A DNA stretch of 64,000 nucleotides. It comes from Rhodanobacter sp. T12-5 (lineage in GTDB: Bacteria > Pseudomonadota > Gammaproteobacteria > Xanthomonadales > Rhodanobacteraceae). The first letter of the stretch is position 1, and each line of letters starts with the position of its first letter. Both the position numbers and the translations under genes were made by a program. The DNA lies in assembly GCF_008329435.1 (NCBI RefSeq), contig NZ_NPKN01000008.1:62001-126000 (forward strand), given 5' to 3'. The notes under the pieces were generated by a model. It was not told the DNA's origin. It searched no databases and saw only the letters and a program-made list of their open reading frames with translations. This document shows positions 28,318 to 59,192 of the stretch, one piece after another.

Positions 28318-31300
28318 ATGTCGATTTCACGCCTGCTTGGTCTTGTCGCTTGTGGTTTCATTGGTGCCACCACTGCCTTTGTCTCGTTGCCTTCGGTCGC
28401 CAAGGCCGCATCCGGCAACACGCCCCAAGCTGATCAGTCCTCGAAGTATTACGCCGAGATGCACTGGCGAGAAATCGGGCCGACCCGAGGTGGCCGCGCC
28501 AGGGCACTGGACGGGGTTCCAAGTCAGCCGAACGTGTTCTATGCCGGCTACGACAATGGTGGCGTCTGGCGCTCGACCGACTACGGAGCGAACTGGGCGC
28601 CGCTGTTCGACAACGAACCGACCGGCTCGATAGGCGCCATCGCGGTGGCGCCCTCGGATCCGAGCATCATCTACGTGGGCACGGGCGCCGGCATCATCCG
28701 CCCGGACCTGTCCGTGGGTAATGGCGTGTACAAGTCCACGGACGCGGGCAAGACCTGGACCCACCTGGGCCTGCGCGACACGCAGATGATCGCGAACATC
28801 GCCGTCGACCCGCACGATCCGAACCGCGTGTTCGTCGCCGCGCTGGGCCATCCGTACGGACCAAATGAGCAACGCGGCATCTTCCGCTCCACCGACGGCG
28901 GCAAGACCTTCACCAAGGTCCTGTATAAAAGCCCGTATGTCAGCGGGAATGACGTGCGCATCGACCCGCAGAACCCGAACATTGTCTACGCCGGGCTGTG
29001 GCAGCAGCAGCAAAGCTATCTGGAAGGCCCTGAGTTCGGCGGCACGGAAGGCGGCATATTCAAGTCCACCGATGGCGGCAATACCTGGAAGGAGCTGACG
29101 AACGGCCTGCCCGCCGGCGTGATCGAGGCAAATCTCGGCATCGCCCCCAGCCAGCCGAGCACGATCTACGCGATGGTGGCCGGCACCGTCGGCAAGGTGC
29201 CAACATCACATGAAGGCACGACCGGAACGGTAAATTTCTACAAGTCGATCGACAGTGGTGAACACTGGCACCTCGCCGCGCGCGCTCCGGAAAATGTCGG
29301 CTCGTCACCGAACGCCGTACCGGATCCGCGGCCGGTCGTGCGCATCGGTGGCGGCGACCTGCCGACCCTGGCAGTGGACGGCAAGGACCCGAACGTCGTT
29401 TACAGCGCTTCGACCGTGTTCTGGCGTACCGAAGATGGCGGCGTGACCTGGGCTGCGGTTCGTGGCGGCCCGAACGGGGACGATTACCAGAAGCCGTGGG
29501 TCAATCCAAACAATCCTGACATCGTCTTCGTCGTTGCCGATCAGGGAGCGACGGTTTCGGCCAACCGCGGTGTGTCGTGGAGCAACTGGTACAACCAGCT
29601 CACCGGAGCGATGTATCACGTATCCACCGACGATGCGTTTCCCTACCGCGTGTGCAGCGGTCAGCAGGACTCGGGTTCGGCCTGCGTCGCCAGCCGCTCG
29701 ATGGACGGCCGCATCACGTTCCATGACTGGCACTCCGTGAGCATCCAGGAATACGGCATTGCGGCGAGCGACCCGAAAGATCCAGACCTGGTATTTGGGA
29801 GCGGACGCAACAACGTCACGCTGTACAACCGCAAGACCGGACAAACCACCTTGGTCGGACCATCGCGCGAACAGCGCGGCATCGATTACAACCGCAATGT
29901 GCGCACGATGCCCCTGCTCTGGTCGCCAAAGGATCCGAAGGTGCTGTTCTACGCATCGAACGTGGTCTGGAAGTCGTCCGACCAGGCCCACAGTTGGACG
30001 CGCATCAGCCCTGACCTTGCACGACAGACGTGGAAGATTCCGGCCTCCGTCGGCAAGTATGCAAACAAGGTCAAGCCAGGTCCCCAAGGCAGCATTACCG
30101 CGCTTTCGGCGTCCGCACTCGATGTGAACGTGCTCTGGGCGGGCACCGACGACGGTAACATCCAGGTGACCATGGACGGTGGCGCGCACTGGTCAAACGT
30201 GACTCCGCCACCGATCAAGCCATGGACACGCATCTACAACATCGAGGCCGGCCATTTCGATGCGAAAACCGCGTATGCGGCCGCCAACTCCATGCGCATC
30301 GACGACATGAACCCGCACTTGTGGCGTACGCATGACGGCGGCAAGACCTGGACCGAAATCAACAACGGCATCAGCCCGGGCGTATTGACCAACACGATTC
30401 GCGAAGACCCACGCAAGCCGGGACTACTTTACGCGGGCACGGATACCCAGGTATGGGTATCGTTCGACGATGGGGATCACTGGCAATCGCTGCGGCTCGA
30501 CATGCCGGCGATTTCGGTGCGCGACCTGCAGGTGAAGGACGATGCCAAATGCGGATGTGCCGACCTCATTGCCGGCACGCATGGCCGCGGCTTCTACATC
30601 CTCGACGACGTGACGCCCTTGCGACAGGTGGCCGATGCACGCAAGGCCGGGGCCGCCTATCTGTTCAAGCCGCAAACGGCTACGCGCGTACGACTGGTGA
30701 CCTACGATTCGATGCCGTTCCCTCCGGAAGTCCCGTCCGGCGAAAATCCGCCAAACGGCGCCATCATCGATTATTACCTCGCTTCCGACGCCACCGGCCC
30801 GCTGACCATCGACATTCTGGATCAAGCAGGCAGTGTCGTGCGGACGTATTCGAGCGAACTCAAGCGCAATCCGGACCCCGCCGTGGACCCCGCTGCGTAC
30901 AACAAGATTTGCCAGGCCAAACCCGATTCACCGGACTGCAGCATCCCGCTGTATTGGCCCTCGCCGATCAAGTCCATGCCGACCAGCGCCGGCATGCATC
31001 GCATCAGCTGGAGCCTGCGCTACCAGCCGCTTGCGCAGGAACGTTCTCCCATCCAGCGTCCGATCGTGATCCCGCATCGCAGCTCAGTGCTGCCGAGCTC
31101 ACCGTGGGCGCCTCCGGGGAAATACACGGTGCGCCTCGCGGTCGATGGCAAGACGTATACACAGCCGCTGACGGTGCGCCTTGATCCGCGGGTGACCACA
31201 CCTGCTGCCGCTCTGGCCCAGTCAGAGAAGCTCTCGGTTGAAATATACGAGCTGGCGCGCAGCACGCTCATGGCCTATGGGCAGGCCCGGGAGCTTGCCC

Positions 31301-31701
31301 AGGAAGTGGGCAAGCTGGAGTCGATCGAACCAGCTGCCAGCAAATCGTTCAAGGCCAGCGTCGATGCCGTGGCGCAGAGCACAGGTCCGCGCGGGTATGG
31401 CTTGCCCTACCCGACACCCGCCACGTTGAAGGACGTCAGCGATGCCGCGTTGGCTGCTTCGCTGGCACTGGAGACGGCGGACACCGCACCCACGGCGGCG
31501 CAGATCGAAGCCTGCAGCCAGGCACGTCAAAACGTGCAAGCAGTGATGGCCAAGTGGGACAAGGTGAAGGGCACGGGCCTGTCGGAGTTCAACGCCAGGC
31601 TCACGAGCAAGGGCCATCCGACGCTGGCATTGCCACTGCTCAGAATGCCTGCCCCGCCGCCCAGCGACGAAAACGGCAACCTGATGGAGCGCGAACGATA
31701 G
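28318..31701 (+). CDS. VPS10/sortilin-like BNR-repeat exported protein A
   Basis: 1127 residues. A signal peptide (LLGLVACGFIGATTAFVSLPSVAKA) precedes many Asp-box motifs of the S.D.G.TW type (RSTDYGANW, KSTDAGKTW, RSTDGGKTF, RTEDGGVTW, RTHDGGKTW), as expected for beta-propeller blades of the VPS10/sortilin-sialidase-like class. Shared landmarks with the other four copies are IGPTRGGRARAL, NGGVWRSTDYG, IGAIAVAPSDP, YVGTGAG and the 'SRDL...THGRGFYILDD' exit. A beta-sandwich and helical tail with TVRLAVDGKTYTQPLTVRLDPRVT ends the protein. Databases often label such proteins glycosyl hydrolases, but I see no catalytic residues. It is nearly co-linear with copy D (52218-55607). Confidence 0.9.
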   Translation: MSISRLLGLVACGFIGATTAFVSLPSVAKAASGNTPQADQSSKYYAEMHWREIGPTRGGRARALDGVPSQPNVFYAGYDNGGVWRSTDYGANWAPLFDNEPTGSIGAIAVAPSDPSIIYVGTGAGIIRPDLSVGNGVYKSTDAGKTWTHLGLRDTQMIANIAVDPHDPNRVFVAALGHPYGPNEQRGIFRSTDGGKTFTKVLYKSPYVSGNDVRIDPQNPNIVYAGLWQQQQSYLEGPEFGGTEGGIFKSTDGGNTWKELTNGLPAGVIEANLGIAPSQPSTIYAMVAGTVGKVPTSHEGTTGTVNFYKSIDSGEHWHLAARAPENVGSSPNAVPDPRPVVRIGGGDLPTLAVDGKDPNVVYSASTVFWRTEDGGVTWAAVRGGPNGDDYQKPWVNPNNPDIVFVVADQGATVSANRGVSWSNWYNQLTGAMYHVSTDDAFPYRVCSGQQDSGSACVASRSMDGRITFHDWHSVSIQEYGIAASDPKDPDLVFGSGRNNVTLYNRKTGQTTLVGPSREQRGIDYNRNVRTMPLLWSPKDPKVLFYASNVVWKSSDQAHSWTRISPDLARQTWKIPASVGKYANKVKPGPQGSITALSASALDVNVLWAGTDDGNIQVTMDGGAHWSNVTPPPIKPWTRIYNIEAGHFDAKTAYAAANSMRIDDMNPHLWRTHDGGKTWTEINNGISPGVLTNTIREDPRKPGLLYAGTDTQVWVSFDDGDHWQSLRLDMPAISVRDLQVKDDAKCGCADLIAGTHGRGFYILDDVTPLRQVADARKAGAAYLFKPQTATRVRLVTYDSMPFPPEVPSGENPPNGAIIDYYLASDATGPLTIDILDQAGSVVRTYSSELKRNPDPAVDPAAYNKICQAKPDSPDCSIPLYWPSPIKSMPTSAGMHRISWSLRYQPLAQERSPIQRPIVIPHRSSVLPSSPWAPPGKYTVRLAVDGKTYTQPLTVRLDPRVTTPAAALAQSEKLSVEIYELARSTLMAYGQARELAQEVGKLESIEPAASKSFKASVDAVAQSTGPRGYGLPYPTPATLKDVSDAALAASLALETADTAPTAAQIEACSQARQNVQAVMAKWDKVKGTGLSEFNARLTSKGHPTLALPLLRMPAPPPSDENGNLMERER

Positions 31702-31712
31702 CGTCCCGACAT

Positions 31713-31907: not shown

Positions 31908-33383
31908 TCAAGCTGCGGGAAGCGTCCTTTGAGGCAGCACCGCTTCCGCTTCCATTTCCACGAGGTACTCTTCCCCAATCAGTTCGGCACCGATCATCGT
32001 ATTGGCAGGCTGGATTCCCCTGAATCGCTCACCATGTACGCGGGCAATCTGTTCCCAGTCTGAGATGTTTTTCACGAAGACCCGGGTGCGCACGACATCC
32101 TGCAGGCTGCCTCCCAAGGACTGGATGGCGCCTTCGATCTTGTCGATCACGAAGTGCATCTGCGATGCTGGGTCCGAGCCGCCGATGTGTCGGGTGCCCA
32201 GCGTGGCGGTGGTTCCCGAGACCAGAATTCGATCCGCCACGCGCACCGCCCTGCTGAAGCCGGCCACTTCTTCCCATGTCGTCCCCGTGAGCACTTTTTG
32301 CCGTCCGTCAGTGCCAGAAGACTGGCACGCATAGGGCGTGACTGCTGCATCCATGTGATGGCTCAAGTCGCCGGACGCGGTCAGGAACGGAGGCTTTCGG
32401 TATTCATCGCCGCAATCGCCGGGTATCGGGCTCATTCCCGATACGGCCTTTCGAATCTTGCTCTTGCTGGCGTCGTCCAGCGGCTGCGTCAGCAACGCCT
32501 TGTTTTCTGCGATGTGCTCACTCCGACCCAGCCGTGCGCCAACGATCACGCCGACCACGCCGTGTTGTTCGAGTATGTAACGGCTGGCCAAATTGGCGAT
32601 TGACATGCCGCTTGTCAGACTCACCTCGTGAAGCACCTGCAAAAGTTGCTGGAACCTTGTCCAGCCACCGGCCGTGTCGATGAAGCGCTTGTACTTCATC
32701 TGCGACCACGTGAGTGCATCGTCGAGACGCGGCTCGCTTTGGTTCAGCCATTTCCCGGAGAGAAAGCCGCCGGCAACCGTTCCGAACGCAAGCAGCTTGA
32801 CGCCGTGGCGTAGGCACGCCGCGGTCATCGACCCGGACGCGCGCTGGTCGAGCAAGGAGTAACACACCTGGTTCGAAAACACCTCGATACCGCTGTGCAC
32901 AACCATTTCCAGATGTGCGGTATCGAAATTGGTCAGTCCCAGGTGGGCGATGAGCCCTTCCGCCTTCAGTTCATTCAGCCAGTACAGGCAGTCCAGCCAA
33001 GCCGGGTCCGCATAGTTCCAGCTGTGAAACTGCAGCAGGTCTATCCGCTCGGATTGCAGACGCCGCAATGACTTCTGCACTGCTGCGCGGACATCTTGTT
33101 TTGTGATCACGCCCGGCGCGGGCACCCATTTGGTCAGCAACTGCGCGTCGCTTCCCCCGAAACGTGCGTGAAACACACCGGCTATGTCTTCGGCCGATCC
33201 GTAGTGGTCGGCCATGTCGAACGTGGTCAATCCGGCATCCAGATACTCCTTCATGGACAGCGCGGCCTGCGCAGGATCGAGCACGCATCCGTCGCGCTCG
33301 AGGTCGGCAACTTGCCACAGGCCTGTGACGACCGGACAGACCACCAGACCCGGGGATGGCTCGCGGCTTGCGTTGTTGTTCAT
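31908..33383 (-). CDS. Aldo/keto reductase fused to a Rid-family (YjgF) domain
   Basis: 491 residues. Residues 1-335 form an NAD(P)H-dependent aldo/keto reductase with the full tetrad: Asp56 and Tyr61 in TFDMADHYG, Lys85 in LLTKWV and His120 in LLQFHSWNY; the IVGARLGRSEHIAENKALL stretch is the cofactor-phosphate region. After a linker, residues about 365-488 are a Rid/YjgF domain (VSGTTAT, DIVRTRVF-like VVRTRVFVKNISDWEQIARVHGERF, VEMEAEAV). The Arg used by RidA imine deaminases (PARS) is Asn here (PANTM), so it belongs to the non-RidA Rid groups. It is cytosolic and pairs with the permease gene 9 bp upstream. The fusion would couple carbonyl reduction to handling of a reactive intermediate. 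Confidence 0.88.
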   Translation of the reverse strand: MNNNASREPSPGLVVCPVVTGLWQVADLERDGCVLDPAQAALSMKEYLDAGLTTFDMADHYGSAEDIAGVFHARFGGSDAQLLTKWVPAPGVITKQDVRAAVQKSLRRLQSERIDLLQFHSWNYADPAWLDCLYWLNELKAEGLIAHLGLTNFDTAHLEMVVHSGIEVFSNQVCYSLLDQRASGSMTAACLRHGVKLLAFGTVAGGFLSGKWLNQSEPRLDDALTWSQMKYKRFIDTAGGWTRFQQLLQVLHEVSLTSGMSIANLASRYILEQHGVVGVIVGARLGRSEHIAENKALLTQPLDDASKSKIRKAVSGMSPIPGDCGDEYRKPPFLTASGDLSHHMDAAVTPYACQSSGTDGRQKVLTGTTWEEVAGFSRAVRVADRILVSGTTATLGTRHIGGSDPASQMHFVIDKIEGAIQSLGGSLQDVVRTRVFVKNISDWEQIARVHGERFRGIQPANTMIGAELIGEEYLVEMEAEAVLPQRTLPAA

Positions 33384-33392
33384 CGGGATCCT

Positions 33393-34877
33393 TCAACCTT
33401 GGGGCAGTCTGGAAAAGCGTTCGGCCGTATCCACGCCTGAAGCGCGGAGCCTTCTCCAGTAGTACAGGAAAATGACCGAGGCGATCAGCATCACGAGAAG
33501 CCACGGAACTGTCGAGTGGAAATACCACGCGCTCACTGTCGTTCCAAGGTCGCTGACAATGTGGACAATCAGCAGGAGCGAAAGACATGAAATTCCGCCA
33601 ACGGCCAGCGAACGCTGCAAAGAGATAGATCGCACCACCGTGACTCTCGCTGCGATCTCCGGGTTGTTCCGTGGCAACCACAGGACCGACACGCACATCA
33701 ACAGGTAATTGACCAGCATCGAGGTGACCATGATGTCGATGCCGAGAAAGAAATCGCCAGCGAAATGGCTGCCCAGGACACCGACGGTCGCCATGAATCC
33801 GCTCAGGAGGATGGCCATGTATGGCGTGTGGTACGTGGGGTGGATCGACGCCATGGGTGCGGGGAATATCCCGTCCTCGGCCCACGCGAACATGAGCCTC
33901 GACACCGACAGGATCATTGCGGGCAGATCGTTCAACAATGCGATGGAAGCACCGAGAACGATGGGCACGGCCCAACCCGAAGACAGCACGTAGCCCAGCA
34001 GGCCAGGCGCGGTAACGTCTCCGCTGCGCGCCTGCTCGGCTACAAAACTCCAGGGAACCGTGTGGTAGACCGAGAACGTGAACGCGACATAGAAAAGCGT
34101 GACCGCGACGATCGCTATGCCAATCGCCCGCGGCAGTGCGCGCGATGGGTCCTTCGCTTCACCTCCCGCTTGCGCAATCGAGTCGAAGCCGATGAAACTC
34201 GAGAACAAGACGGCGGAACCGGCGGCCAGTGTAGACCAGTGAAACGCGGCGTCCGTCGGCGCAAGGGTCCGGTTTTCCTTGTGCAGGATCGCTGCAGCAA
34301 AATCCTGATGATTGAAGGACAGTCCGGCCACTATCACGACGCCGCCCAACAGGAACATCAAGATCATGAGCGGTATCACGATCCGCTCATACAGCTTGAC
34401 TCCCCGAATGTTCAGCCAGACGAACGTCCACAGGATGAACAGCGCGACGGTGACGCGGACCGCTCCCCTGTCCAGTACACCAGCGAGCTGGTTCAGAGCA
34501 AGCAAGCTCGCGACATCGCGAAAAAACGGCACGACCAGATAGGCCACCACCCCGATCGCAATGGACAAGCCAAACCATTGCGAGAAGCTGGCCACGAAGC
34601 CGAAGTAGGGTCCGAGTGCGCGGCTCGCGTACACGTAGCTCCCGCCGGCGCGCGGCATGGCCGAGGCGAGAATCGCGTAAGCAAAGGCCGCAAGTGCAGC
34701 GGGAATCGCAGCAAGCAGGAACGCCGGCAAGACATAGGGACCGATCCCCGGCACGTTCCGCTGGATCATGAACGGAATCACGTAGATCGAGGCGCCCACC
34801 ATCGAGCAGATACCGGTGGCAGCCAGACCCACGAGGCCAAGTCTGCGTTCGAGCGACGTTGCCAACGTGGATGTCAT
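33393..34877 (-). CDS. APC-family amino acid permease
   Basis: 494 residues with about 12-14 membrane helices. It shows the APC superfamily hallmarks in helix 1 (GLAATGICSMVGASIYVIPF, with the broken GxG-type helix that binds the amino-acid carboxylate), and in AYAILASAMPRAGGSYVYASRALGPYFGF and SSFIGFDSIAQAGGEAKDPSRALPRAIG. It resembles cationic or neutral amino-acid transporters; the substrate cannot be read from sequence. It ends 9 bp before the AKR-Rid gene starts, so both are one transcript from the promoter at 34989-35017, and the import substrate probably feeds that enzyme. Confidence 0.9.
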   Translation of the reverse strand: MTSTLATSLERRLGLVGLAATGICSMVGASIYVIPFMIQRNVPGIGPYVLPAFLLAAIPAALAAFAYAILASAMPRAGGSYVYASRALGPYFGFVASFSQWFGLSIAIGVVAYLVVPFFRDVASLLALNQLAGVLDRGAVRVTVALFILWTFVWLNIRGVKLYERIVIPLMILMFLLGGVVIVAGLSFNHQDFAAAILHKENRTLAPTDAAFHWSTLAAGSAVLFSSFIGFDSIAQAGGEAKDPSRALPRAIGIAIVAVTLFYVAFTFSVYHTVPWSFVAEQARSGDVTAPGLLGYVLSSGWAVPIVLGASIALLNDLPAMILSVSRLMFAWAEDGIFPAPMASIHPTYHTPYMAILLSGFMATVGVLGSHFAGDFFLGIDIMVTSMLVNYLLMCVSVLWLPRNNPEIAARVTVVRSISLQRSLAVGGISCLSLLLIVHIVSDLGTTVSAWYFHSTVPWLLVMLIASVIFLYYWRRLRASGVDTAERFSRLPQG

Positions 34878-35017: not shown

Positions 35018-35367
35018 CGAAGCGTCATCGGCTGGCTCCGCCAGTGAATACCTTGCGCTGCCGGTGCCGCTCTGCCGGAACCCGACAGCCTCGGGGGATC
35101 TTCTCCGGCCTCGCGGGTGAAGAGCCGCTGTTCCAGCACAACAGGCCACCGTGACTTACGACGGGGTAAGAAAGCCGAGGTTCCCTGTCGCTTTCCGACG
35201 AGCGCAACCGATGTATTCAGTCGTAGACTGTTACGCAACTGCACTGCCATCGATATTCAAAAAGCCGCCGCCATCGCCAGCAACCAGCCAAAGCCGGGCA
35301 ATCCCTGCCACCCATGTGCCATACGGGTGGGTGCTGCATCTTGCGCCGAAATCGAGCCGGTCGCCGA

Positions 35368-36666
35368 ATGACACTTTCCACTCAGACCACTGCACCCTAT
35401 CCGAGCCTCGCTCGCGCCTGCACCGTCGTATTGATCCTGTTTGCCACAGCGGTACTCGCGTACACCGACCGTCAGGTACTCAGCCTGCTGGTCGATCCGA
35501 TCCGGCACGATCTGCACATCAGCGATACGCAGATGAGCCTGTTGCTGGGTACTGCGTTTGCCGCGATCTACGGGGTCGCGGGGGTTCCGCTGGGGTTTCT
35601 TGCCGACCGCACGTCGCGCCGCAATCTGATCGTTGCCGGTGTGCTGATCTGGAGCGTGGGCACGCTCATGTGTGCCGTGGCGCCTTCGTTTGCAATGTTG
35701 TTCGTGGGGCGGGTCGTAGTCGGTCTTGGCGAGGCCGTGCTCTCGCCGGCAGCCATCTCCCTCATCAGCGATACGTTCGAGCCCAAGCGGCGCGGACTCG
35801 CGGTCGGCACGTTCTTCACCGGCATCGCGGTCGGGATCGGCGGCTCGATCCTGATCGGCGGTGGCGTACTTGACCTGGTGCGCGATGGCTTGTTTGCAGC
35901 AACGCCGGTTGCACACTGGGCGCAATGGCGGCTCGTGCTTCTGGCAGTGGGCCTGCCCAGCATGCTGTGGGCCCTGCTTCTGCTTGTCATCAAGGAGCCG
36001 GTACGCAGGCACGATCAGGTTTTCGAGGAGAACTTGCCGCCTGCCGCGGGCCAGAACTCGCTGTTCCCGATCCTGCGAAGGATGGCGCCGGTGTTTCTGG
36101 TCGTTGCCGTGGCATCCATGGTCGACAATGCCGTTGGCGCGTGGGCGCCTTCGCTGTTGATACGGCAATTTGGTATGGATCCGGCCAAGGTTGGCGTTGA
36201 ACTCGGACTGCTGCTGATGCTCGGCTACGGTGGCGGCATGCTGGCGGGTGGCGCCCTGGCCGACCGCTTCGCCATCTGGCGCGGACGGAACGGCAAGATC
36301 GAACTGTGTTGTCTGGCCGTGGTGGCCACCTTGCCGGCCGCAGTGATGATAAACAGCCACAGCGCATCCGGCGTCATGTTTGCCGTTCCCATCTATTTCG
36401 CGCTTTCGGCCGTGGTCACCGCATCTGGCCTGTCCGCGATCCTCGACGCAACACCCAATCGCATGCGCGGGCGGGCAATGGCGATCAGCTTCTTTCTCAA
36501 CGTGGCGATCGGCGCAGGCTTTGGCCCGACTGCAGTCGCACTCGCAGGAGACCATGTGTTCGGGCCGGGCGCCGGGCTTGGGCCCGCGATCAGCTTTACA
36601 GTAGTCGTTTCCTACCTGTTGGCAGCGCTGGTGCTGGCAGCCGCCATCCGAACACGGAGATCCTGA
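35368..36666 (+). CDS. MFS transporter (spinster-like)
   Basis: 432 residues from the ATG at 35368, with 12 transmembrane helices. The helix 2-3 loop reads GFLADRTSRRNLI, the MFS A-motif GxLaDrxxrR, and the helix 1 end has the TDRQVLSLLVDPIRHDLHISDTQMSLL stretch found in bacterial 'spinster'-like transporters. The C-half has the matching GGALADRFAIWRGRNGKIE. Spinster-like bacterial proteins carry organic or aromatic acids or lipids; the substrate here is unknown. Its stop overlaps the TIGR04076 start by one base (TGATG), so it leads a three-gene rightward unit. It is divergent from the permease arm. Confidence 0.88.
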   Translation: MTLSTQTTAPYPSLARACTVVLILFATAVLAYTDRQVLSLLVDPIRHDLHISDTQMSLLLGTAFAAIYGVAGVPLGFLADRTSRRNLIVAGVLIWSVGTLMCAVAPSFAMLFVGRVVVGLGEAVLSPAAISLISDTFEPKRRGLAVGTFFTGIAVGIGGSILIGGGVLDLVRDGLFAATPVAHWAQWRLVLLAVGLPSMLWALLLLVIKEPVRRHDQVFEENLPPAAGQNSLFPILRRMAPVFLVVAVASMVDNAVGAWAPSLLIRQFGMDPAKVGVELGLLLMLGYGGGMLAGGALADRFAIWRGRNGKIELCCLAVVATLPAAVMINSHSASGVMFAVPIYFALSAVVTASGLSAILDATPNRMRGRAMAISFFLNVAIGAGFGPTAVALAGDHVFGPGAGLGPAISFTVVVSYLLAALVLAAAIRTRRS

Positions 36667-37016
36667 TGCAACCATCCGACGAAGACACCTTTGAGCTGTA
36701 CGACCTGCGGGTCGAAGTGGTGGCCCCGCCCGGCGCCAAGCTGTACTGCTCGGCCACGGTGGGCGACAGTTTCGAGCTGCGCGGTGAACTGCTCCATCTT
36801 CCGGACGGGCAGGGATTTTCCATTTATTCGCTGGCAGCAGTACTCCCGCTGCTGGCTGCCAAGCAGCGGGTGACCGATGCGAACGACTGGATGAGCACCG
36901 ACGCCGAAGTGGCCTGCCCCGATCCGGGCTGTCCATCGCGCCTGCGCATCACCCGGCTCGGCCGCCGGCGCTTCCATCACGATGAGGTCACTGCCGTGCG
37001 GACTTCCGCGCCATGA
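36666..37016 (+). CDS. TIGR04076 family protein
   Basis: 116 residues from an ATG overlapping the MFS stop. It fits the TIGR04076 pattern of a small, cytosolic beta-rich protein: VEVVAPPGAKLYCSATVGDSFELRG, AVLPLLAAKQRV, and a C-terminal CPDPGCPSRLRITRLGRR with Cys residues that may bind metal. The family occurs in gene neighbourhoods with reductases and radical or flavin enzymes but has no known function. Its stop overlaps the next aldo/keto reductase start (ATGA), indicating tight coupling. Confidence 0.82.
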   Translation: MQPSDEDTFELYDLRVEVVAPPGAKLYCSATVGDSFELRGELLHLPDGQGFSIYSLAAVLPLLAAKQRVTDANDWMSTDAEVACPDPGCPSRLRITRLGRRRFHHDEVTAVRTSAP

Positions 37017-40224: not shown

Positions 40225-40252
40225 ACAGCCTCTAGGTTGTTGATCATGAAAT

Positions 40253-48559: not shown

Positions 48560-48751
48560 GTGAGCACTCCCGATGGAATTACGTACAAAGGCTGGCCCAC
48601 ACAGAAATCGGTTTGCACGCCAGCGGCGGGCAACAGCCAGTAGCCGCACATCGATGCATGCTGCCGCCTGGACCGGTTCTTCCGTGACGCGCAAAGCACT
48701 GACCGATTTCCCGCGTATCCCGGAAAAGGAAACATGCGGAACGCGCTGCGG

Positions 48752-51736
48752 TCAGTGGCCAAGCGCGGCGAGCACCTGTCGATGCAGGTCCGCAGCCGTC
48801 GACATCTGCTGCGTCGTTGGTGGCGCCAAGGCCGACACGGCACCATATTGACCGCCATAAATGGAGCTGTAGGCTGCGCCAAGTGCCGAATTCAGTTTCC
48901 GCAAGGCATCGACCTTGCTGCCCTTGGCCTTTGCTTCCTGCAACGCGTCAAACGTGCGGTTCATGTCGTCGACGAGCTGGGTCGCCACGTCGAATTGCTG
49001 CGCAAGCCCTGCGATCGGTGTATCGACTCGCGGGTCCATGCGCAGCGTCAGTGGCTGCGTCTGGGTTTTGCCGTCCACGGTGAGCTTGACGGTGTATTCG
49101 CCCGGCACGGCCGAGGGCCCGGGAGGTCCAAGCGGCGTGTCATGCAGGATCACTGAAATCGGCGCGCTCCGGCGCAACGACTTCGGCGCCGGATAGTTCA
49201 GGTCCCAGACGATGCGGTGCATGCCTGCGTTCGACGGGAGTGCCAGAGGCGGACGCAGCCAATAGGTGGGGAAGTTGAGAGTGCCGGGATCAACCGGCTT
49301 GGGCTGATCTGCCGAGGACAGGTGGAAGGCGAGCCTGCCGGCCGCGTCGTAGACCTCCAGTGTCACCGGTCCACGGGTATCTGCTTTCAGGTAATAGTCG
49401 AGGATCGCACCGTCCGGCGGATTCTGGCCTGCGGGGGTCTCCTTCGGCATCTGGGTGTCGGTATAGGTGTTGCGCAAAACCTGGTAGGCAGCAGCCGGTT
49501 TGTAGAGATAGCCAGGATCGGCGGCCTCGGCTGCGGCGATCTGGCGCAGCGGGGTGATGTCGTCGAGAATCCAGAACGAACGGCCATGCGTGCCCAGCAC
49601 CACATCGTTGTCGTGGATCACCAGGTCGCGCATCGAAGTCTGTGGCAGGTTGAGCTGCAGCGATTGCCAGTGATCGCCATCATCCGTCGAATACCACACG
49701 GCGCGTTCCGTTCCCGCGATCAGCAGCCCCTTCTGTTCGGGATCCTCGCGCACCACGTTCGCCGAGGCGTTGTCGGGCAAGCCATTGACGATCAGCTTCC
49801 AGGTCTTGCCGCCATCGTGGGTGCGGTAGATGTACGGTTTCAGATCGTCCAGGCGGAAGCGGTTGACGGCGGCGTACGCGGTCTGGTCGTCGAAATGCGA
49901 AGCGACCAGCATCGACACCTTGCTCCACGGTGTCATGGCCTTGGGCGTGACATTGGCCCAATGCTTGCCGGCGTCGCGGGTGATCCAGATGAGGCCGTCA
50001 TCGGTACCGACCCAGATCGTATCCACGTTCTTGAAAGACGGCCCGATGCTGTAGATCACGCCGCGGTGATGGAGCGGGTTCTCATGGCTGCCGAACACTC
50101 CCAGCGTGGATGGCAACCCCGGGTTGGAGCGTGACAGGTCGGGGCTGATCTTCTGCCAGCTCTGGCCGCCATTGGTGGTCTTGAACAGGACGTTCATCCC
50201 GTAATACAGCAGGTGCGGATCGGCCGGTGAGAACAACAGGGGCGCCGTTCGGTTGGTACGGTACTGGTCCCCGACAACTTGCGGGCCTACAAACTGGCTC
50301 TGCCCGGTGACCCAGTCGTAACGGGTGACATCACCGCCATAGACGATGTTCGGATCCAGAGGGTCGGGTGCCACGTACGCATGCTCCCCCGCGCCGACCG
50401 GATGCCAGTCGCGAAGTGTGATCTGACCGTCATTGCTCCGGCTCGAACTTCCCACCGAGCCACTGTCCTGCTGGGAGCTGTAGACGCGGTAAGGAAAGAC
50501 GTTATCGGTAATGATGTGGTACGAGGAGGCGGTTGGCTGGTTGTACCAGGAGCTCCAGGTCTGGCCGCCGTCAACCGTCAGCGTGGCGCCCTGGTCCACG
50601 CCCAGCAGGATGATCTTCGGGTTCGAGGGGTTGATCCAGATGCGGTGATAGTCATCTCCACCGGGCGCACCCTTGATGGCGCTGAAGCTCTTTCCTGCAT
50701 CCATCGAGCGATAGAAAGACGTGCTGGCCACATAAATCTCGTCGGGATTGTCGGGCGCGACGGCGACTTCGGCGAAGTCTGCTCCGCGACCGTAGATGCG
50801 TTCCTCGTGGTTGACGCGATGGAAGGTCTGGCCCGCGTCGTCGGAAAGATATGTTCCACCAAAGTCGGGCGGAGCCTGCACCTGTGCATAGACGCGCATG
50901 GGATCGCTTGGCGCGATGCCGATACCAATCCGGCCAAGGCCCTGCGCCACGCTCGGCAGGCCCTGTCCGATCTGATTCCAGGTGTTGCCGCCATCAGTGG
51001 ACTTGAACACGCCGCTGCCAGGACCATTGATGGAGGTATTCTCTGACTTCATCGACCACGGCGGCGTGCGTCCGGCCCACAACACGGCGTAGACAATCTG
51101 CGCATTTTTCGGGTCCAGCGCGACCTGTACCGCTCCGACATTCGGATTCTTGTACAACACCTTCTCGAACGACTTGCCGCCATCGGTCGAGCGGAACACG
51201 CCGCGCTCCGGATTCGGGCCGTAGGGATGCCCGAGTACGGCCACGAACAAGCGGTTGGCATCATGGGGATCCACTACCACCGAAGCGATTTGCTGACTAT
51301 CGCGAAGGCCGAGGTGCACCCAGGTCTTGCCGGCGTCCGTGGATTTGTACATCCCGTCGCCAGTGGAAAGATCCGGCCGCAACAGGCCTTCGCCGGAGCC
51401 CACGTAGATCACGTTCGGATCCGACGGCGCCACTTCAAGATCGCCCACCGAATTGTTTTCATCGCCCTTGAACAGCGGCTCCCAGGTCACACCATAGTTT
51501 TCGGACTTCCATACCCCGCCATTGTTGGGCGCCATGTAGAAGACATTCGGCTGCATTGCCGTGCCGGAAACCCCCACCGTGCGGCCTCCCCGAAACGGCC
51601 CAATCAACCGCCACTGCATCCCGCTTTGCTCGTCTGGTCCCGGGTGCTGAGCCCACACGGGAAGTGCCAGCAGGGTCAGCGTCGAAAGCAGCAACGCGGA
51701 ACACAGCTTTATCGCGGGGTTGCGTGTTGCTTGCAT
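48752..51736 (-). CDS. VPS10/sortilin-like BNR-repeat exported protein C
   Basis: 994 residues. A signal peptide (LCSALLLSTLTLLALPVWA) is followed by the shared opening SGMQWRLIGPFRGGRTVGVSG, NNGGVWKSENYGVTW and Asp-boxes KSTDAGKTW, RSTDGGKSF, KSTDGGNTW, TTNGGQSW, ITRDAGKHW and RTHDGGKTW. It ends with VVLGTHGRSFWILDD, the beta-domain GEYTVKLTVDGKTQTQPLTLRMDPRVD and a short helical tail; shorter at the C-terminus than A and D. GAGG precedes the ATG. It is upstream of copy B on the same strand and divergent from copy D across 481 bp. Confidence 0.9.
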   Translation of the reverse strand: MQATRNPAIKLCSALLLSTLTLLALPVWAQHPGPDEQSGMQWRLIGPFRGGRTVGVSGTAMQPNVFYMAPNNGGVWKSENYGVTWEPLFKGDENNSVGDLEVAPSDPNVIYVGSGEGLLRPDLSTGDGMYKSTDAGKTWVHLGLRDSQQIASVVVDPHDANRLFVAVLGHPYGPNPERGVFRSTDGGKSFEKVLYKNPNVGAVQVALDPKNAQIVYAVLWAGRTPPWSMKSENTSINGPGSGVFKSTDGGNTWNQIGQGLPSVAQGLGRIGIGIAPSDPMRVYAQVQAPPDFGGTYLSDDAGQTFHRVNHEERIYGRGADFAEVAVAPDNPDEIYVASTSFYRSMDAGKSFSAIKGAPGGDDYHRIWINPSNPKIILLGVDQGATLTVDGGQTWSSWYNQPTASSYHIITDNVFPYRVYSSQQDSGSVGSSSRSNDGQITLRDWHPVGAGEHAYVAPDPLDPNIVYGGDVTRYDWVTGQSQFVGPQVVGDQYRTNRTAPLLFSPADPHLLYYGMNVLFKTTNGGQSWQKISPDLSRSNPGLPSTLGVFGSHENPLHHRGVIYSIGPSFKNVDTIWVGTDDGLIWITRDAGKHWANVTPKAMTPWSKVSMLVASHFDDQTAYAAVNRFRLDDLKPYIYRTHDGGKTWKLIVNGLPDNASANVVREDPEQKGLLIAGTERAVWYSTDDGDHWQSLQLNLPQTSMRDLVIHDNDVVLGTHGRSFWILDDITPLRQIAAAEAADPGYLYKPAAAYQVLRNTYTDTQMPKETPAGQNPPDGAILDYYLKADTRGPVTLEVYDAAGRLAFHLSSADQPKPVDPGTLNFPTYWLRPPLALPSNAGMHRIVWDLNYPAPKSLRRSAPISVILHDTPLGPPGPSAVPGEYTVKLTVDGKTQTQPLTLRMDPRVDTPIAGLAQQFDVATQLVDDMNRTFDALQEAKAKGSKVDALRKLNSALGAAYSSIYGGQYGAVSALAPPTTQQMSTAADLHRQVLAALGH

Positions 51737-52217: not shown

Positions 52218-55200
52218 ATGTCTATTCTCCGCTCGTTTACGGCTGCCTCGATCGGCTTGATCGCCACCGCATTTGGCCTGCTCGCGTTGCCGTCGGTAAC
52301 CACAGCGCAACCCGGGAAGGCGAGTGCGACAACCCAGTCCACCAAGCTGTACGGGGAAATGCATTGGAGGGGTATCGGACCGACTCGCGGCGGTCGTGCC
52401 CGCGCGTTGTCTGGCGTTCCCAGCCAGCCAAACGTGTTCTATGCAGGTTACGACAATGGTGGCGTCTGGCGTTCGACAGACTACGGCGCCAACTGGGTGC
52501 CACTGTTTGACGATCAGCCAACCAGCTCGATAGGGGCCATCGCGGTGGCACCTTCCGATCCCAACATCATTTACGTGGGAACTGGCGCGGGGATCATCCG
52601 TCCGGATCTCGCGGTAGGTGACGGAGTCTACAAATCGACCGACGCCGGCAAGACCTGGACCCACCTGGGTCTGCGCGACAGTCAGATGATTGCGAACATC
52701 GTGGTGGATCCCGGGAATCCCGACCGCCTGTTCGTCGCTGCCCTGGGTCATCCGTATGGGCCGAATCCGGAGCGCGGGATTTTCCGCTCCACCGATGGTG
52801 GCAAGACATTTACCAAGGTGCTGTACAAAAACGAGTATGTCAGTGGCAATGACGTGCGGATTGATGCGAGCAATCCGAACATTGTCTACGCCGCGTTGTG
52901 GCAGCAGCAGCAGAGTTATCTCGAAGGCGCCGAATTCGGCGGAACCGAAGGCGGGATCTTCAAGTCCACCGACGGCGGCAGCACGTGGAAGCAACTGAGC
53001 AACGGATTGCCCTCCGGCGTCATCGAAGCGAACCTCAGCCTCTCGTTGAGCGACCCGGGCACGATCTACGCGATGGTCGCCGGCACCGTCGGGAAAGTTG
53101 CCACGGCCAAGGAGGGTACGACGGGGACGGTCAATCTCTACAAGTCGACGGACGCTGGCGAGCATTGGTATCTTGCCGCACACGACCCGCACACGTCCGC
53201 CGCATCGCCGACTGCGACGGTGGATCCCCGCCCGACCATACGCATTGGTGGCGGTGATCTGCCGACGATAGCCGTCGATCCGAAAAATTCCAACGTTGTG
53301 TACAGCGACTCCACTGTACTCTGGCGCACCGAGGACGGTGGTGTGACCTGGAATGCCGTGCGCGGCGCTCCCGGCGGTGACGATTACCAGAACATCTGGA
53401 TCAATCCAAACGACACCAACATCATTTTCGTCGTCGCGGATCAAGGCGCCGTTGTCTCAGGAAATCGTGGGGTATCCTGGAGCAACTGGTACAACCAGTT
53501 GACGGCCGCGATGTATCACGTTTCGACCGACAACGCATTTCCCTATCGCGTCTGCGGTGGGCAGCAGGATTCCGGGTCGGCCTGTGTGGCCAGTCGTTCG
53601 ATGGACGGCAGGATCACCTTCCACGACTGGCATCCGGTGAATATCCAGGAATACGGCATTGCCGCCAGTGATCCGAGTGATCCCGATCTGGTCTTCGGCA
53701 GCCAGCGCAGCAACGTCTCCTTGTACAACCGCAAGACCGGCCAGACCACCGAGGTAGGTCCCGATGCCGAAGCACGCGGTACCAAATTCAACCGCAACGT
53801 GCGTACGATGCCCCTGCTCTGGTCACCGGTGGATCCGACGGTGCTGTACTACACCTCCAACGTGGTGTGGAAATCCACCGACAAGGCGCACAGTTGGACC
53901 CGGATCAGCCCTGACCTCGCCCGCCAGACCTGGAAGGCGCCCGCCACCACGGGAAAGTATGCGAGCGACGTCAAACCCGCGGCTGCAGGCAGCATCACTG
54001 CGCTCTCCGCTTCGCCGCGTGACGTCAACGTCCTGTGGGCGGGTACTGACGACGGTCAAATACAGGTGACGAGGGACGGCGGCGCCAAGTGGTCCAACGT
54101 GACCCCCGCCGCCATCAAGCCGTGGACGCGCATTTTCAACATCGAAGCCGGTCATTTCGACACGCAGACCGCCTACGCGGCGGCCAACACCATGCGAATC
54201 GACGACATGAATCCGCATCTGTGGCGCACCCGTGATGGCGGCAAGACGTGGACTGAAATCAACCACGGCATAGCACCGGGGGCGGTGACCAACACCATCC
54301 GCGAAGACCCGCGTAAGCCCGGGTTGTTGTACGCGGGCACCGATACGCAGGTCTGGGTCTCGTTCGACGATGGCGACAACTGGCAGTCGCTCCGGCTCGA
54401 CATGCCGGCAATATCGGTGCGCGACCTTGAACTGAAGGACGATGCTACCTGCATGTGTTCAGACCTGATCGCTGCCACCCACGGCCGCGGCTTCTACATC
54501 CTCGACGATGTCACTCCCCTGCGCCAGATGGCTGAAGCGCGCAGCGCCAAGGCAGCTTATCTGTTCAAGCCACAGACAGCGGTGCGCCTGCGCATGGGTA
54601 CCAACGATCCGACACCGTGGCCGCCGGAATTGCCGGCCGGTGAGAATCCGCCGAACGGCGCCATCCTCGACTATTACCTTGCTGCCGACATGAAGGGCCC
54701 CCTGACGATCGACATCCTGGATGGCGCAGGCAAGGTCGTGCGGACCTATTCGAGCGAACTCAAGCGCGATCCCGACCCCGCCGTGGATTCGGCTGCCTAC
54801 GACAAGGTCTGTCATGCCGGGCCGCACTCCCCCGACTGCTCCGTGCCGCTGTATTGGCCGGCCCGCATCCGCTCCATGCCGACCAGCGCCGGGATGCACC
54901 GCATCAGCTGGAACCTCCGCTATCAACCGCTGGCTGCGGAACGCCAGGAAGTCGACGCTACAGGTGCCGTGCCAAAGCGAAGCTCGCCGCCACCCAGTTC
55001 GCCGTGGGCTCCTGCCGGCCAGTACACGGTGCGTCTCACAGTCGACGGACAAAGCTACACGCAGCCACTGACGCTGCGCCTGGATCCGCGCGTCACCACC
55101 TCCGCGTCCGATCTGGCGCAGAACAACAAGTTGTCCATGGAGATGTACGAGCTCGCGCGCGACGCCCGCTTGGCATATGGGCAGGCACACGATCTCGGCC

Positions 55201-55607
55201 AGGAAATCGCGAAGCTGGGATCGGCTCAGGGCGCGCCCGCTGTTTCACTCAAGGCCAAGATCGATGCCCTGGCTCCGGACGAGAAGCGTGGGTTCCGTGG
55301 ATTCGGCAGGGGCTACCAGGCGGCAACGACGCTGAACGGCGTGAGCGATGCAGCACTTGCCGCGCTGATGTCGCTGCAATCTGCAGACACTGCACCCACC
55401 GCCGCGCAAACCGCGGCAACCGTGCGCGCCAAGGCCCAGGCGCAAGCGGTGATGGCGAAGTGGGATGAAGTGAAGACCAGGGAGCTCCCTGCATTCAACG
55501 CGACTCGCACCAGCACGGGTCAGCCTGCTCTCGCACTACCGCCGTTGAGGATGCCCGCGGCTCTGCCCAGTGACGAGAACGGCAACGAGAACGAGAACGA
55601 GGGATAG
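52218..55607 (+). CDS. VPS10/sortilin-like BNR-repeat exported protein D
   Basis: 1129 residues from the ATG at 52218, with a signal peptide (FTAASIGLIATAFGLLALPSVTTA). It is co-linear with copy A over its full length: EMHWRGIGPTRGGRARALSG, DNGGVWRSTDYGANW, QQQQSYLEGAEFGGTEGG, ASRSMDGRITFHDWH, MPTSAGMHRISWNLRYQPL and the ending ALPPLRMPAALPSDENGN. Asp-boxes recur at the same places. A Cys-containing stretch (KDDATCMCSDLIAATHGRGF) is shared with copy A only. It ends in a short Asn-Glu run encoded by an AACGAG repeat, absent from copy A. A and D are clearly a recent duplicate pair. Confidence 0.9.
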   Translation: MSILRSFTAASIGLIATAFGLLALPSVTTAQPGKASATTQSTKLYGEMHWRGIGPTRGGRARALSGVPSQPNVFYAGYDNGGVWRSTDYGANWVPLFDDQPTSSIGAIAVAPSDPNIIYVGTGAGIIRPDLAVGDGVYKSTDAGKTWTHLGLRDSQMIANIVVDPGNPDRLFVAALGHPYGPNPERGIFRSTDGGKTFTKVLYKNEYVSGNDVRIDASNPNIVYAALWQQQQSYLEGAEFGGTEGGIFKSTDGGSTWKQLSNGLPSGVIEANLSLSLSDPGTIYAMVAGTVGKVATAKEGTTGTVNLYKSTDAGEHWYLAAHDPHTSAASPTATVDPRPTIRIGGGDLPTIAVDPKNSNVVYSDSTVLWRTEDGGVTWNAVRGAPGGDDYQNIWINPNDTNIIFVVADQGAVVSGNRGVSWSNWYNQLTAAMYHVSTDNAFPYRVCGGQQDSGSACVASRSMDGRITFHDWHPVNIQEYGIAASDPSDPDLVFGSQRSNVSLYNRKTGQTTEVGPDAEARGTKFNRNVRTMPLLWSPVDPTVLYYTSNVVWKSTDKAHSWTRISPDLARQTWKAPATTGKYASDVKPAAAGSITALSASPRDVNVLWAGTDDGQIQVTRDGGAKWSNVTPAAIKPWTRIFNIEAGHFDTQTAYAAANTMRIDDMNPHLWRTRDGGKTWTEINHGIAPGAVTNTIREDPRKPGLLYAGTDTQVWVSFDDGDNWQSLRLDMPAISVRDLELKDDATCMCSDLIAATHGRGFYILDDVTPLRQMAEARSAKAAYLFKPQTAVRLRMGTNDPTPWPPELPAGENPPNGAILDYYLAADMKGPLTIDILDGAGKVVRTYSSELKRDPDPAVDSAAYDKVCHAGPHSPDCSVPLYWPARIRSMPTSAGMHRISWNLRYQPLAAERQEVDATGAVPKRSSPPPSSPWAPAGQYTVRLTVDGQSYTQPLTLRLDPRVTTSASDLAQNNKLSMEMYELARDARLAYGQAHDLGQEIAKLGSAQGAPAVSLKAKIDALAPDEKRGFRGFGRGYQAATTLNGVSDAALAALMSLQSADTAPTAAQTAATVRAKAQAQAVMAKWDEVKTRELPAFNATRTSTGQPALALPPLRMPAALPSDENGNENENEG

Positions 55608-55617
55608 AAAGCACCGG

Positions 55618-55967: not shown

Positions 55968-58900
55968 CTACTGAACCTGCACCGGCGCATCCGGCATCCG
56001 CTCATCCGGACCATTCGCAATGGCTACCACCGGCAACTGACTTGCCTGCAGCTTCGCGTTTAGCGCTTTCATGTCATGCGACTTGAGGTATTGCCAACGC
56101 TGGGCTACGGACTTCATGGACTGATCGTACTCATCGTATTCCTCGTAGAGCTGCGCGGTCGGCGCGTTGGCCGACATCACGTTGATCTCGTTGGACAAAT
56201 AGGCGATGCGCTCATTCAGCCGAACGGGATAGTTGAGCAGCCCCACACCGGTCTTCGCCTTGTATTGATACAGCTCACCTTGCAGCGCGAGTGCTTTTGC
56301 GTCCAGACCGGCAAGCAGCTTCTGCAGGCTCGTGCTCGCGCTCGCCTTCTTCTCCAAGGTCTTCAACTGCTGGCGTACGTCAAGAACCTGGTTGATGACG
56401 GCATGATTCTGCCACAGCAGATTCTGTGCCTTGTTGCCCAGGTTGAACTGTTTGACGAGATCAGCCTGCGTGGCACTGGAGCGCGGGTCGTTTTTTACGG
56501 TCAACGTCTGCCGATAAGTGTTGCCACCCACCGCGAGAACGACCTTGTAAATGCCTGGCAAGACATACGCCCCATTAGGCCCCCGGCCCTCGTTGTAAGC
56601 CACCATGTCATGAATCGGCGGTGCCGCGGGGAAGCTCAGATCCCACACAAACCGGTTGATGCCGCGATGACCCGTCAGCATGGTGTCTCCAACGGGACTG
56701 CGCATGAAACCACCCTTGTTCGACTTCCATGAGGCGTCGTCGACATTGTTGAACGAATTGACCAGATTGCCGGCGGAATCGTAGATCGTCAGGGTGATTT
56801 TGCCGGTCGGCTTGTCCTTCAAGTAGTAGGAAATCACATCGTTGGGAGGATTCTTGCCCACCTGGTTTCCCACCGAGGCGCGCCGGCCAGCTTGCATGCG
56901 CAGGATGAATGCCGGCGCGGATTTGAACAGGTGGGCCGGACTCTGCATGACTTCCGCGCTCATCTCACGCAGCGCGGATATGTCGTCCATGCCCCAGGCC
57001 GAACGCCCGTGGGTTGCCACCAGGAGGTCAGCGCCCTTGATCGCGATGTCGCGTACTTCGGCGGTGGGCAGATTCAGCTGCAGTGACTGCCACTGCTGCC
57101 CGCCGTTGAATGACACAGCTATGCCATTGGCCGTACCGGCGAACAGCAGATCCTTGTTCACCGTGTCCTGCCTGACCACATAGACATAGTTGGGCGCGGC
57201 AAGGCCATCGACGATGCTCGACCAGGTTGCGCCGAAGTCATGGGTCACGAAGACATAAGGCGTACTGTCACCCATTTTGTGCTTGTCGACGGCGACAAAG
57301 GCAGTGCCTGGGTCGAAATGCGATGCCTCGATGGCATTGACGCGACCCCACTCCGGCATCTTCGGCGGCGTGATTTTCTTGTAGGTCTTGCCGGCATCAA
57401 GCGTCAACCAGACCAATCCATCGTCGGTTCCCAGCCAGATTTCACCTTTGCGCAGTGGCGACGGCGCAATCGCGTAGATCACGTCGTAGTATTCGACGCT
57501 CGCATTGTCCTGGGTAATGGGACCGCCGGATGATTGCTGCTTGGACTTGTCATTGCGGGTCAGATCCTTGCTGATGACGGTCCAGCTCTTGCCGCTGTCC
57601 TTGCTCGCCATGAGGTACTGCGAGCCCAGGTACAGCGGATGCGAATCCTCCCCGTCCCAAGACGCAAACGCAAACGGATCAGTCCAGGTAAAGCGGTACT
57701 TCACGTCCTTCGCGGCGTATCCACTGTTCGCATTCGACCACGGCGCAATGTCCTGTATCGTCTCGGTACGCATGCTGTAACGCGTCAAGCCGCCCGAATA
57801 TCCTCCTTCAACAATGTAATCGGGATCATTTGGGTCGGCGAACACGTATCCTGACTCGCCATCATCGCCGCCAACAACAAAAACATCCTTGGCGGAAATG
57901 CCGCCCAGGCCACGGCTTGCCGTGCCAAACGCACATCCGGACGGACAATCCTGAATAGACGCATAGATGTTGTAAGGAAAACGATCATCCGTCGAAATGT
58001 GATAAAGCTGGCCAATGGGCAGGTTGTAGTACTTGCCCCAGGTCTTGCCACCATCCACGCTCGTGACGACGCCCTGGTCATGGCCCTGGATCATCAGATC
58101 GGGGTGCAAAGGGTTCATCCAGAACGCGTGATTGTCGCCCCCGGGAAGCACAACCGCGTTCCAGGTGCCTCCGCCGTCAGTGGATTTGAAGAACCCGGTA
58201 TTCGTCGCGTACAGGGTGTTCGCGTTCGTCGGGTCGGCAAACACGTTGGTGAAATACCACGCGCGTCCACGAATGCGCTGGTCGGCGCTGATCAGTTTCC
58301 AGTCCGCACCGGCGTTGTCCGAGCGAAACAGACCGCCGTCCGCGGCCTCGATGAGCGCATAGACGACCTGTCCATGCGAGTTCCCGCCCGCCACGGCAAC
58401 ACCGATTTTCCCCAGGACACCCGAGGGCAGGCCGTGGCCTTGCAGGCGGACCCAGGTCTTGCCCTGGTCCGTCGACTTGAACAATCCGTCGCCTTCACCG
58501 CCGCTCGACATGTGCCAAGGCTTGCGGTACATCGTCCACATACCTGCGTACACCACCGACGCATCCGAGGGGTCCATCGACAGGTCGATGCCGCCGGTCT
58601 GATCATTCACATACAGCGTCTTGTCCCAGGTCTTTCCGCCATCGGTGGAGCGGAAGATGCCGCGATCCTTGCTCGGGCTGTAGATGCGCCCGAGCGCCGC
58701 CACCATCACCACGTTCGGATCTTTTGGGTCCACCACAATCTTGGCGATATGTCGCGTGTTCTTCAGACCCATGTTGGTCCAGTGCTTGCCCCCATCGGTT
58801 GACTTGTATACGCCATCGCCAAAAGTGGCGTCGCTGCGCGGGTCCGCCTCACCCGTGCCGACATAGACAATATTCGGGTCGGAGGGGGCCACCGCGATGG

Positions 58901-59192
58901 CACCGATGGAGGACACCGGTTCGTGATTGAAAATCGGCTCCCAGGACAAACCGGAGTTGGTTGTTTTCCAGACCCCGCCGTTGGCGCTGCCAAAGTAGAA
59001 CGTGCGCGGTTGGGTCGGAACACCGGCTACCGCCAGGACGCGGCCGCCATCAAAAGGGCCTATCAGTCGCCAGCTCATGTGGGCATACATGTCGGGCGCC
59101 ACGGTTTGCGCCGCGGCACTGACGAAAATCATGAGGAGCAAAACGCCGACGCCAGACAGGGCTCTCGCTCTGGCGGTAATGTTCAAGACCAT
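55968..59192 (-). CDS. VPS10/sortilin-like BNR-repeat exported protein E
   Basis: 1074 residues; AGGGGA lies before the ATG. Signal peptide: GVGVLLLMIFVSAAAQ. Shared opening MSWRLIGPFDGGRVLAVAGVP and SANGGVWKTTNSGLSW; Asp-boxes KSTDGGKHW, RSTDGGKTW, KSTDQGKTW, RSDNAGADW, KSTDGGGTW and VDGGKTW. The exit reads LLVATHGRSAWGMDD. The C-terminus is the longest helical tail of the set (LAGLDAKALALQGELYQYKA...YEEYDEYDQSMKSVAQRWQYL). It is the most divergent of the five. Its promoter must lie in the 376-bp region upstream. The five-member set is discussed under findings. Confidence 0.9.
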   Translation of the reverse strand: MVLNITARARALSGVGVLLLMIFVSAAAQTVAPDMYAHMSWRLIGPFDGGRVLAVAGVPTQPRTFYFGSANGGVWKTTNSGLSWEPIFNHEPVSSIGAIAVAPSDPNIVYVGTGEADPRSDATFGDGVYKSTDGGKHWTNMGLKNTRHIAKIVVDPKDPNVVMVAALGRIYSPSKDRGIFRSTDGGKTWDKTLYVNDQTGGIDLSMDPSDASVVYAGMWTMYRKPWHMSSGGEGDGLFKSTDQGKTWVRLQGHGLPSGVLGKIGVAVAGGNSHGQVVYALIEAADGGLFRSDNAGADWKLISADQRIRGRAWYFTNVFADPTNANTLYATNTGFFKSTDGGGTWNAVVLPGGDNHAFWMNPLHPDLMIQGHDQGVVTSVDGGKTWGKYYNLPIGQLYHISTDDRFPYNIYASIQDCPSGCAFGTASRGLGGISAKDVFVVGGDDGESGYVFADPNDPDYIVEGGYSGGLTRYSMRTETIQDIAPWSNANSGYAAKDVKYRFTWTDPFAFASWDGEDSHPLYLGSQYLMASKDSGKSWTVISKDLTRNDKSKQQSSGGPITQDNASVEYYDVIYAIAPSPLRKGEIWLGTDDGLVWLTLDAGKTYKKITPPKMPEWGRVNAIEASHFDPGTAFVAVDKHKMGDSTPYVFVTHDFGATWSSIVDGLAAPNYVYVVRQDTVNKDLLFAGTANGIAVSFNGGQQWQSLQLNLPTAEVRDIAIKGADLLVATHGRSAWGMDDISALREMSAEVMQSPAHLFKSAPAFILRMQAGRRASVGNQVGKNPPNDVISYYLKDKPTGKITLTIYDSAGNLVNSFNNVDDASWKSNKGGFMRSPVGDTMLTGHRGINRFVWDLSFPAAPPIHDMVAYNEGRGPNGAYVLPGIYKVVLAVGGNTYRQTLTVKNDPRSSATQADLVKQFNLGNKAQNLLWQNHAVINQVLDVRQQLKTLEKKASASTSLQKLLAGLDAKALALQGELYQYKAKTGVGLLNYPVRLNERIAYLSNEINVMSANAPTAQLYEEYDEYDQSMKSVAQRWQYLKSHDMKALNAKLQASQLPVVAIANGPDERMPDAPVQVQ

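Follow-up and report, generated by a model that had tools for sequence, protein, structure and literature searches.

A crowded array of eight giant Asp-box proteins around and partly within a trans-4-hydroxyproline utilisation gene set of Rhodanobacter sp. T12-5

Results and Discussion

In the genome of Rhodanobacter sp. T12-5 (3.98 Mb, 19 contigs), eight genes encoding giant Asp-box proteins, referred to as giants A to H, were found within 50 kb on a single contig (NZ_NPKN01000008.1, in the following C18). The best explanation for this arrangement is an array that was built around, and partly into, a gene set for the utilisation of trans-4-hydroxyproline. Fold model, exclusive clustering, mixed ancestry and operon-like layout were obtained by computation, and export was judged by eye. 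For the giants themselves, the favoured reading, to which a probability of roughly 0.35 is given, is that they are extracytoplasmic proteins of the GH74 fold recruited to a locus using hydroxyproline- and proline-rich peptides or glycopeptides. Both binding and cutting of a ligand by the giants would be compatible with the best explanation. The window mentioned below is the stretch of 64,000 nucleotides that was analysed (C18:62001-126000); positions without the prefix C18 refer to it.

Giants and interleaved genes in the window

Five giants are located in the window. Giant A (28318..31701, plus strand, 1127 aa) is followed by giant B (45350..48694, minus strand), the open reading frame of which begins 57 nt after giant C and probably starts at the ATG at 48559, and by giant C itself (48752..51736, minus strand, 994 aa). 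Giant D is encoded on the plus strand by the frame 51939-55607, for which the ATG at 52218 is the likelier start (52218..55607), and giant E (55968..59192, minus strand) represents a separate deep branch of the giant family tree. An earlier note on this DNA had described five exported Asp-box proteins of about 1,000-1,130 residues, and these were recovered at their positions, all exceeding the Pfam cut-offs for PF15902 (Sortilin-Vps10; 99-120 bits, cut-off 33) and PF02012 (BNR; 30-49 bits, cut-off 27). Each of them contains seven to eight matches to the motif S-x-[DN]-x-G-x-x-[WFY] and, as judged by eye from the translations, a plausible signal peptide. Cysteines are absent from the mature chains of giants C, F and H, and two to seven scattered ones occur in those of the other giants. 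Furthermore, in their 5' regions giants A and D share a 300-nt direct repeat (28435-28734 and 52335-52634; 78% identity).

The genes reported to be interleaved with the giants were likewise found, one of them in refined form: the aldo/keto reductase encoded at 31908..33383 (minus strand) is fused to a RidA domain (AKR-RidA). It is followed by genes for an APC amino-acid permease (33393..34877, minus strand), an MFS transporter (35314..36666, plus strand) and a second aldo/keto reductase (37013..38092, plus strand). An exported alpha/beta-hydrolase annotated as an esterase (38509..40224, minus strand) matched its Pfam family weakly (23 bits, cut-off 22). Next to it lies the gene for an exported M24 metallopeptidase (40253..41860, minus strand), in which five putative metal ligands can be made out by eye. 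The exported M28 peptidase with PA and transferrin-receptor-dimer (TFR-dimer) domains (42619..44919, plus strand) is presumably of the glutamate carboxypeptidase II type. Within the window, no same-strand run combines a peptidase gene with a giant. The frame 35257-36936 (minus strand), antisense to the MFS gene, was rejected as spurious.

Beside giant E, genes encoding a 2OG-Fe(II) oxygenase (59569..60129, minus strand) and a TPR-sulfotransferase (60267..62222, minus strand) were identified. Together with further genes of these kinds (62384-64000 and C18:151629-153065), this pair (59569-62222) accompanies the TonB receptors of the locus. To the left of the giant locus, a DUF5916 protein is encoded at 19750-22053.

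Giants F to H and the hydroxyproline gene set

A search of the whole genome with PF15902 returned 27 stretches, all of them on C18 and in eight giant frames, and none on the other contigs. Giants F, G and H (C18:130519-139864, minus strand) are located just past the end of the window; TonB receptor 1 (C18:126538-129510) is encoded 3' of giant F at a distance of 1,008 nt. Upstream of these three giants and on the same strand, the hydroxyproline genes were found (C18:139987-147838). The gene order on this strand is epimerase, DAO, 2Fe-2S, FAD, DHDPS, ALDH and APC, followed by giants H, G and F, and no gap in the run from the epimerase to giant F is larger than the 122 nt that separate giant H from the APC gene.

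The set for trans-4-hydroxyproline is complete, comprising epimerase, D-hydroxyproline dehydrogenase, deaminase and semialdehyde dehydrogenase, with the DHDPS- and ALDH-family enzymes assigned by context. The 4-hydroxyproline epimerase keeps both catalytic Cys motifs and scored 413 bits, slightly under the NCBIfam cut-off of 442. The dehydrogenase, which we take to be of the heterotrimeric type, includes a 2Fe-2S subunit of 82 residues (Fer2_4). An AraC-type regulator is encoded divergently from the hydroxyproline genes. Of the 21 TonB-plug matches in the genome, two fall into this part of the locus, which lies beyond the window and also encodes another exported M24 peptidase, here with a signal of the Tat type. 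The first steps of the route from trans-4-hydroxyproline to alpha-ketoglutarate are described in PMC4364671. A search of the genome for M9 collagenases gave no match, and the control likewise matched nowhere.

The reading of the earlier note is supported in outline, the locus uniting exported peptidases and importers with the intracellular catabolism of an amino acid. The catabolic part is played by hydroxyproline degradation, encoded outside the window, and not by the aldo/keto reductases. The G+C content is 61% in the 26-59 kb region and 60% over the 20 kb that follow, as against 64-68% around them, with third-position values too close to decide on transfer. Further along the contig, a Baseplate_J-like protein is encoded at C18:166864-169980 (L030:6865-9981), so that the locus may be followed by a phage-tail-like region.

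Fold and active site of the giants

Structure prediction was carried out for one of the eight giants, giant C. The model (pLDDT 90) consists of two propellers (residues about 31-732), an Ig-like sandwich and a helical C-terminus. According to this model, giant C is predicted to form tandem seven-bladed propellers arranged as in GH74 instead of one ring of 10 blades, and thereby resembles the GH74 xyloglucanases (PDB 6p2k, 2cn2, 7kn8). In a Foldseek search, GH74 chains ranked first and sortilin was placed below 25 GH74 rows (3f6k, E 2.8e-12, TM 0.15-0.21). The closest solved sequences to the giants also belong to GH74, and alignment of the giants with four GH74 proteins by hhalign yielded an E-value of 9e-23 over 604 columns. 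The giants differ from the xyloglucanases in sequence, with 18% identity, and in the added Ig-like part and helical C-terminus. Comparison of the C-terminal region with the PDB gave nothing at E 0.001 and only weak matches to Ig-like parts.

In order to evaluate the active site, an alignment (A3) of 68 rows was used, representing 63 of 80 fetched loci and the five window giants; L108, which has an internal stop, and 16 others were left out. Both in a profile comparison and in the hhalign alignment with the four GH74 proteins, the Asp of 2cn2 that is Ala in 2cn3 corresponds to N71 of giant C; we take this Asp to be the GH74 catalytic base, D70. The respective column contains Asp in 2 of the 68 rows, namely window giants A and D, and otherwise V (32), N (12), T (11), A (7), C (3) or P (1), so that the base is absent in 66/68. 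As far as can be predicted from the sequences, the giants are not GH74 enzymes by the usual chemistry, A and D nevertheless keeping the base Asp. A conserved glycosidase active site, named in the earlier note as an argument against its peptide-binding proposal, was accordingly not seen with respect to GH74 chemistry.

Column 424 is acidic in 68/68 rows (D 46, E 22); it was set at the GH74 acid by motif position, in a region where the profile alignment is unreliable. Moreover, all 68 rows agree in D362, D381, Q423, E451 and R719. By hand assignment, the invariant polar residues sit in loops between strands 2-3 or 4-1, and the face carrying such loops is the functional one according to PMC2716378. 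Conserved polar columns show a modest excess in the top loops (BC and DA, 17/235) compared with the bottom loops (8/181; AB 1, CD 7, the latter being the Asp boxes), all loop classes having been assigned by hand.

Ancestry and crowding of the array

The giant family ranges over Acidobacteriota, Bacteroidota, Gemmatimonadota and others. A tree was calculated for 114 giants, namely the eight described here and 106 of 116 called giant frames (at least 900 aa, score above 800). The eight giants need six changes in this tree, all forced by well-supported branches, and the only sister pairs among them are A/D and C/F, giants A and D being recent paralogues. By tree distance, the nearest other sequence is a giant from the same family of bacteria for A/D; it is of Acidobacteriota for B, C/F and E, and G and H fall nearest to mixed groups. 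These results indicate that the array was drawn from several lineages, since its eight giants occupy at least six tree positions, and tandem duplication as its only origin is ruled out. The giants of T12-5 are somewhat more clustered than shuffled labels (6 changes compared with a mean of 7.8; 6 of 500 shuffles were as low).

Among 32 other giant-bearing genomes of the bacterial family, the densest cluster comprised four giants in 60 kb, with the best ten candidates scored per genome. All giant counts are lower bounds, based on the best ten candidates per genome in the family sample and the best three in the order sample.

Neighbours of giants in other genomes

The earlier note had proposed a conserved system of giants with M28, M24, APC and AKR proteins, and comparison across relatives spoke mostly against such co-occurrence. 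In a scan of 109 giant-bearing loci (tblastn, E 1e-15, half of the query), homologues of the window M28, M24, esterase and AKR genes were present in 0/109, and the same applied to the epimerase, dehydrogenase, deaminase, ALDH and second APC genes. The window APC permease and the MFS transporter each had a homologue in one locus, the exported M24 peptidase from beyond the window in two, and TonB receptor 2 in seven. Flanks were about 1.5 kb long at 29 loci and up to 10 kb at 80, many of these on short contigs, so neighbour homologues are undercounted. Receptors 70-89% identical to TonB receptor 2 adjoin or are flanked by giants in genomes of the same family (L146, L149, L150, L158-L160, L182). 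Two or three giants occur together in 11 of the 80 loci from the named collection.

In other phyla, a Pfam tally of 112 of 142 neighbour frames, obtained with a simple ORF caller and considering the best 25 of 169 families, revealed no recurrent non-giant family: the highest values were DAO 5, SurE 4 and OMP barrel 3, followed in lower rows by TonB barrel, S9 and S10 with 2 each. Carbohydrate genes were not recurrent giant neighbours in this tally either.

Viewed from the peptidase, a homologue of the window M24 gene was found in 36/151 genomes of the order, T12-5 being the only one of its family, and a giant lies within 10 kb in 2 of 8 such loci read, which is the part of the comparison in favour of the proposal. 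The AKR-RidA gene is present in 6/151 order genomes including that of T12-5 and adjoins an APC permease in all five others, none from the same family. Taken over the giant-bearing loci, the neighbour tally and the M24 loci, a conserved giant-peptidase neighbourhood is not supported, the genes for peptidases, AKR and esterase being seldom, if at all, found with giants.

Hydroxyproline genes and giants across genomes

The epimerase was found in 36/220 order genomes and giants in at least 106/220. Both occur together in at least 8/220 at the cut-offs used, and they are close in T12-5 and in G080. In the family sample, both are present in 14/78 genomes and close in two, T12-5 and G070. Among the 13 others of these 14, one is linked compared with 0.23 expected from a uniform-placement estimate, which is not significant as evidence of a family-wide link; 12 show no link, and in seven the epimerase and giants are on different contigs.

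In G070, the order epimerase, APC permease and giant of T12-5 is repeated with the full gene set at 55-77% identity. In G055, a giant of the same branch lies beside the same APC permease, with no epimerase match there, and G024, from the same genus as G070, carries the equivalent giant away from hydroxyproline genes. In G080, which belongs to another family, a giant is located about 3.2 kb past the ALDH-type gene of an epimerase-deaminase-ALDH group and 4.6 kb from the epimerase. The giants of G070 and G055 form one branch and that of G080 another, both distant from giants H, G and F. Proximity of a giant to hydroxyproline genes thus recurs in two other lineages, which is suggestive and not significant; the placement of different giant branches at comparable sites hints at a function, although numbers are small. 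In 12 hydroxyproline loci of the same order (L165-L176), no giant was found, ten of these loci coming from genomes without a giant match, and an M24 peptidase gene lies beside ALDH in 10/12.

Proposed function and alternatives

From the joint presence of peptidases, importers and hydroxyproline catabolism in one locus, the best guess is a diet of proline- and hydroxyproline-rich protein. In the favoured reading, the giants would act outside the cytoplasm on such proteins or glycoproteins, either collagen-like or plant cell-wall hydroxyproline-rich glycoproteins (HRGP), and would supply the exported M24 and M28 peptidases with the products. Uptake of peptides or amino acids may then proceed via the TonB receptors and the APC permease, and hydroxyproline would be converted to alpha-ketoglutarate via epimerase, D-hydroxyproline dehydrogenase, deaminase and semialdehyde dehydrogenase.

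Doubtful yet deserving attention is the alternative in which the giants, crowded at a hotspot of insertion and duplication, have nothing to do with hydroxyproline and are exported proteins for binding or assembly in general. Their spread over several phyla without recurrent non-giant neighbours and the scattered tree positions with two sister pairs are in line with it, as is the separation of the modules elsewhere, where APC goes with AKR-RidA and giants with a TonB receptor. However, none of the eight giants resides elsewhere in the genome, and the APC-giant order recurs in another genus. It appears rather unlikely that the giants are catalytic. They would then be glycan hydrolases or lyases that have the GH74 fold and an altered catalytic pair, and might strip O-glycans from hydroxyproline-rich glycoproteins and so open the peptide to peptidases. 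The nearest folds and solved sequences, the acidic column 424 and the five invariant residues argue for such enzymes; the rarity of the GH74 base Asp, the unreliable alignment of column 424 to the GH74 acid and the missing recurrence of carbohydrate-gene neighbours argue against them. A more specific version would be a long shot: a divergent GH74-fold battery with rewired active site, in which every member has its own substrate among hydroxyproline-linked glycans or collagen-type glycopeptides and feeds the exported prolidase-type peptidases and the hydroxyproline genes, some members being co-transcribed with the latter, in a locus undescribed so far.

The earlier idea of sortilin-like receptors presenting peptides to peptidases is very improbable. 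Vps10-domain receptors such as sortilin share Asp-box repeats and the Pfam name with the giants, and the M24 loci with a nearby giant would fit. In sortilin, the propeller is followed by a cysteine-rich 10CC domain and a membrane anchor, whereas the giants are devoid of such a cysteine-rich domain and three of them of any cysteine in the mature chain. The sortilin propeller is a single 10-bladed ring, as stated in PMC2716378, and the analogy is unsupported because the modelled fold shows tandem propellers of the GH74 type. The giants may nevertheless bind peptides. The giants' profile also matched the Dispase autolysis-inducing protein (PDB 6fhp, E 7.9e-15), which comprises only 342 residues.

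That protein is presumably a propeller interacting with a protease. Among described systems, HypR regulons for hydroxyproline and proline resemble the present locus and agree with the guessed diet: according to section 11 of PMC5343134, they share the enzymes from epimerase to alpha-ketoglutarate, to which some species add proline peptidases, collagenases and, for transport, a TonB receptor and a COG531 permease. In contrast to the locus of T12-5 with its AraC-type regulator, the secreted partners named in that section are collagenases, the regulator is of the GntR type, and such giants are not mentioned.

In the open-licence literature, no functional description of the bacterial giant family was found; it occurs in several phyla and is named only after its repeats. 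Copies located inside a defined catabolic gene run provide a testable substrate class for this family. If the favoured reading is true, a glycosidase fold would be used with its canonical base removed, and the locus would perhaps represent a route into hydroxyproline-rich proteins without the collagenases of known HypR regulons.
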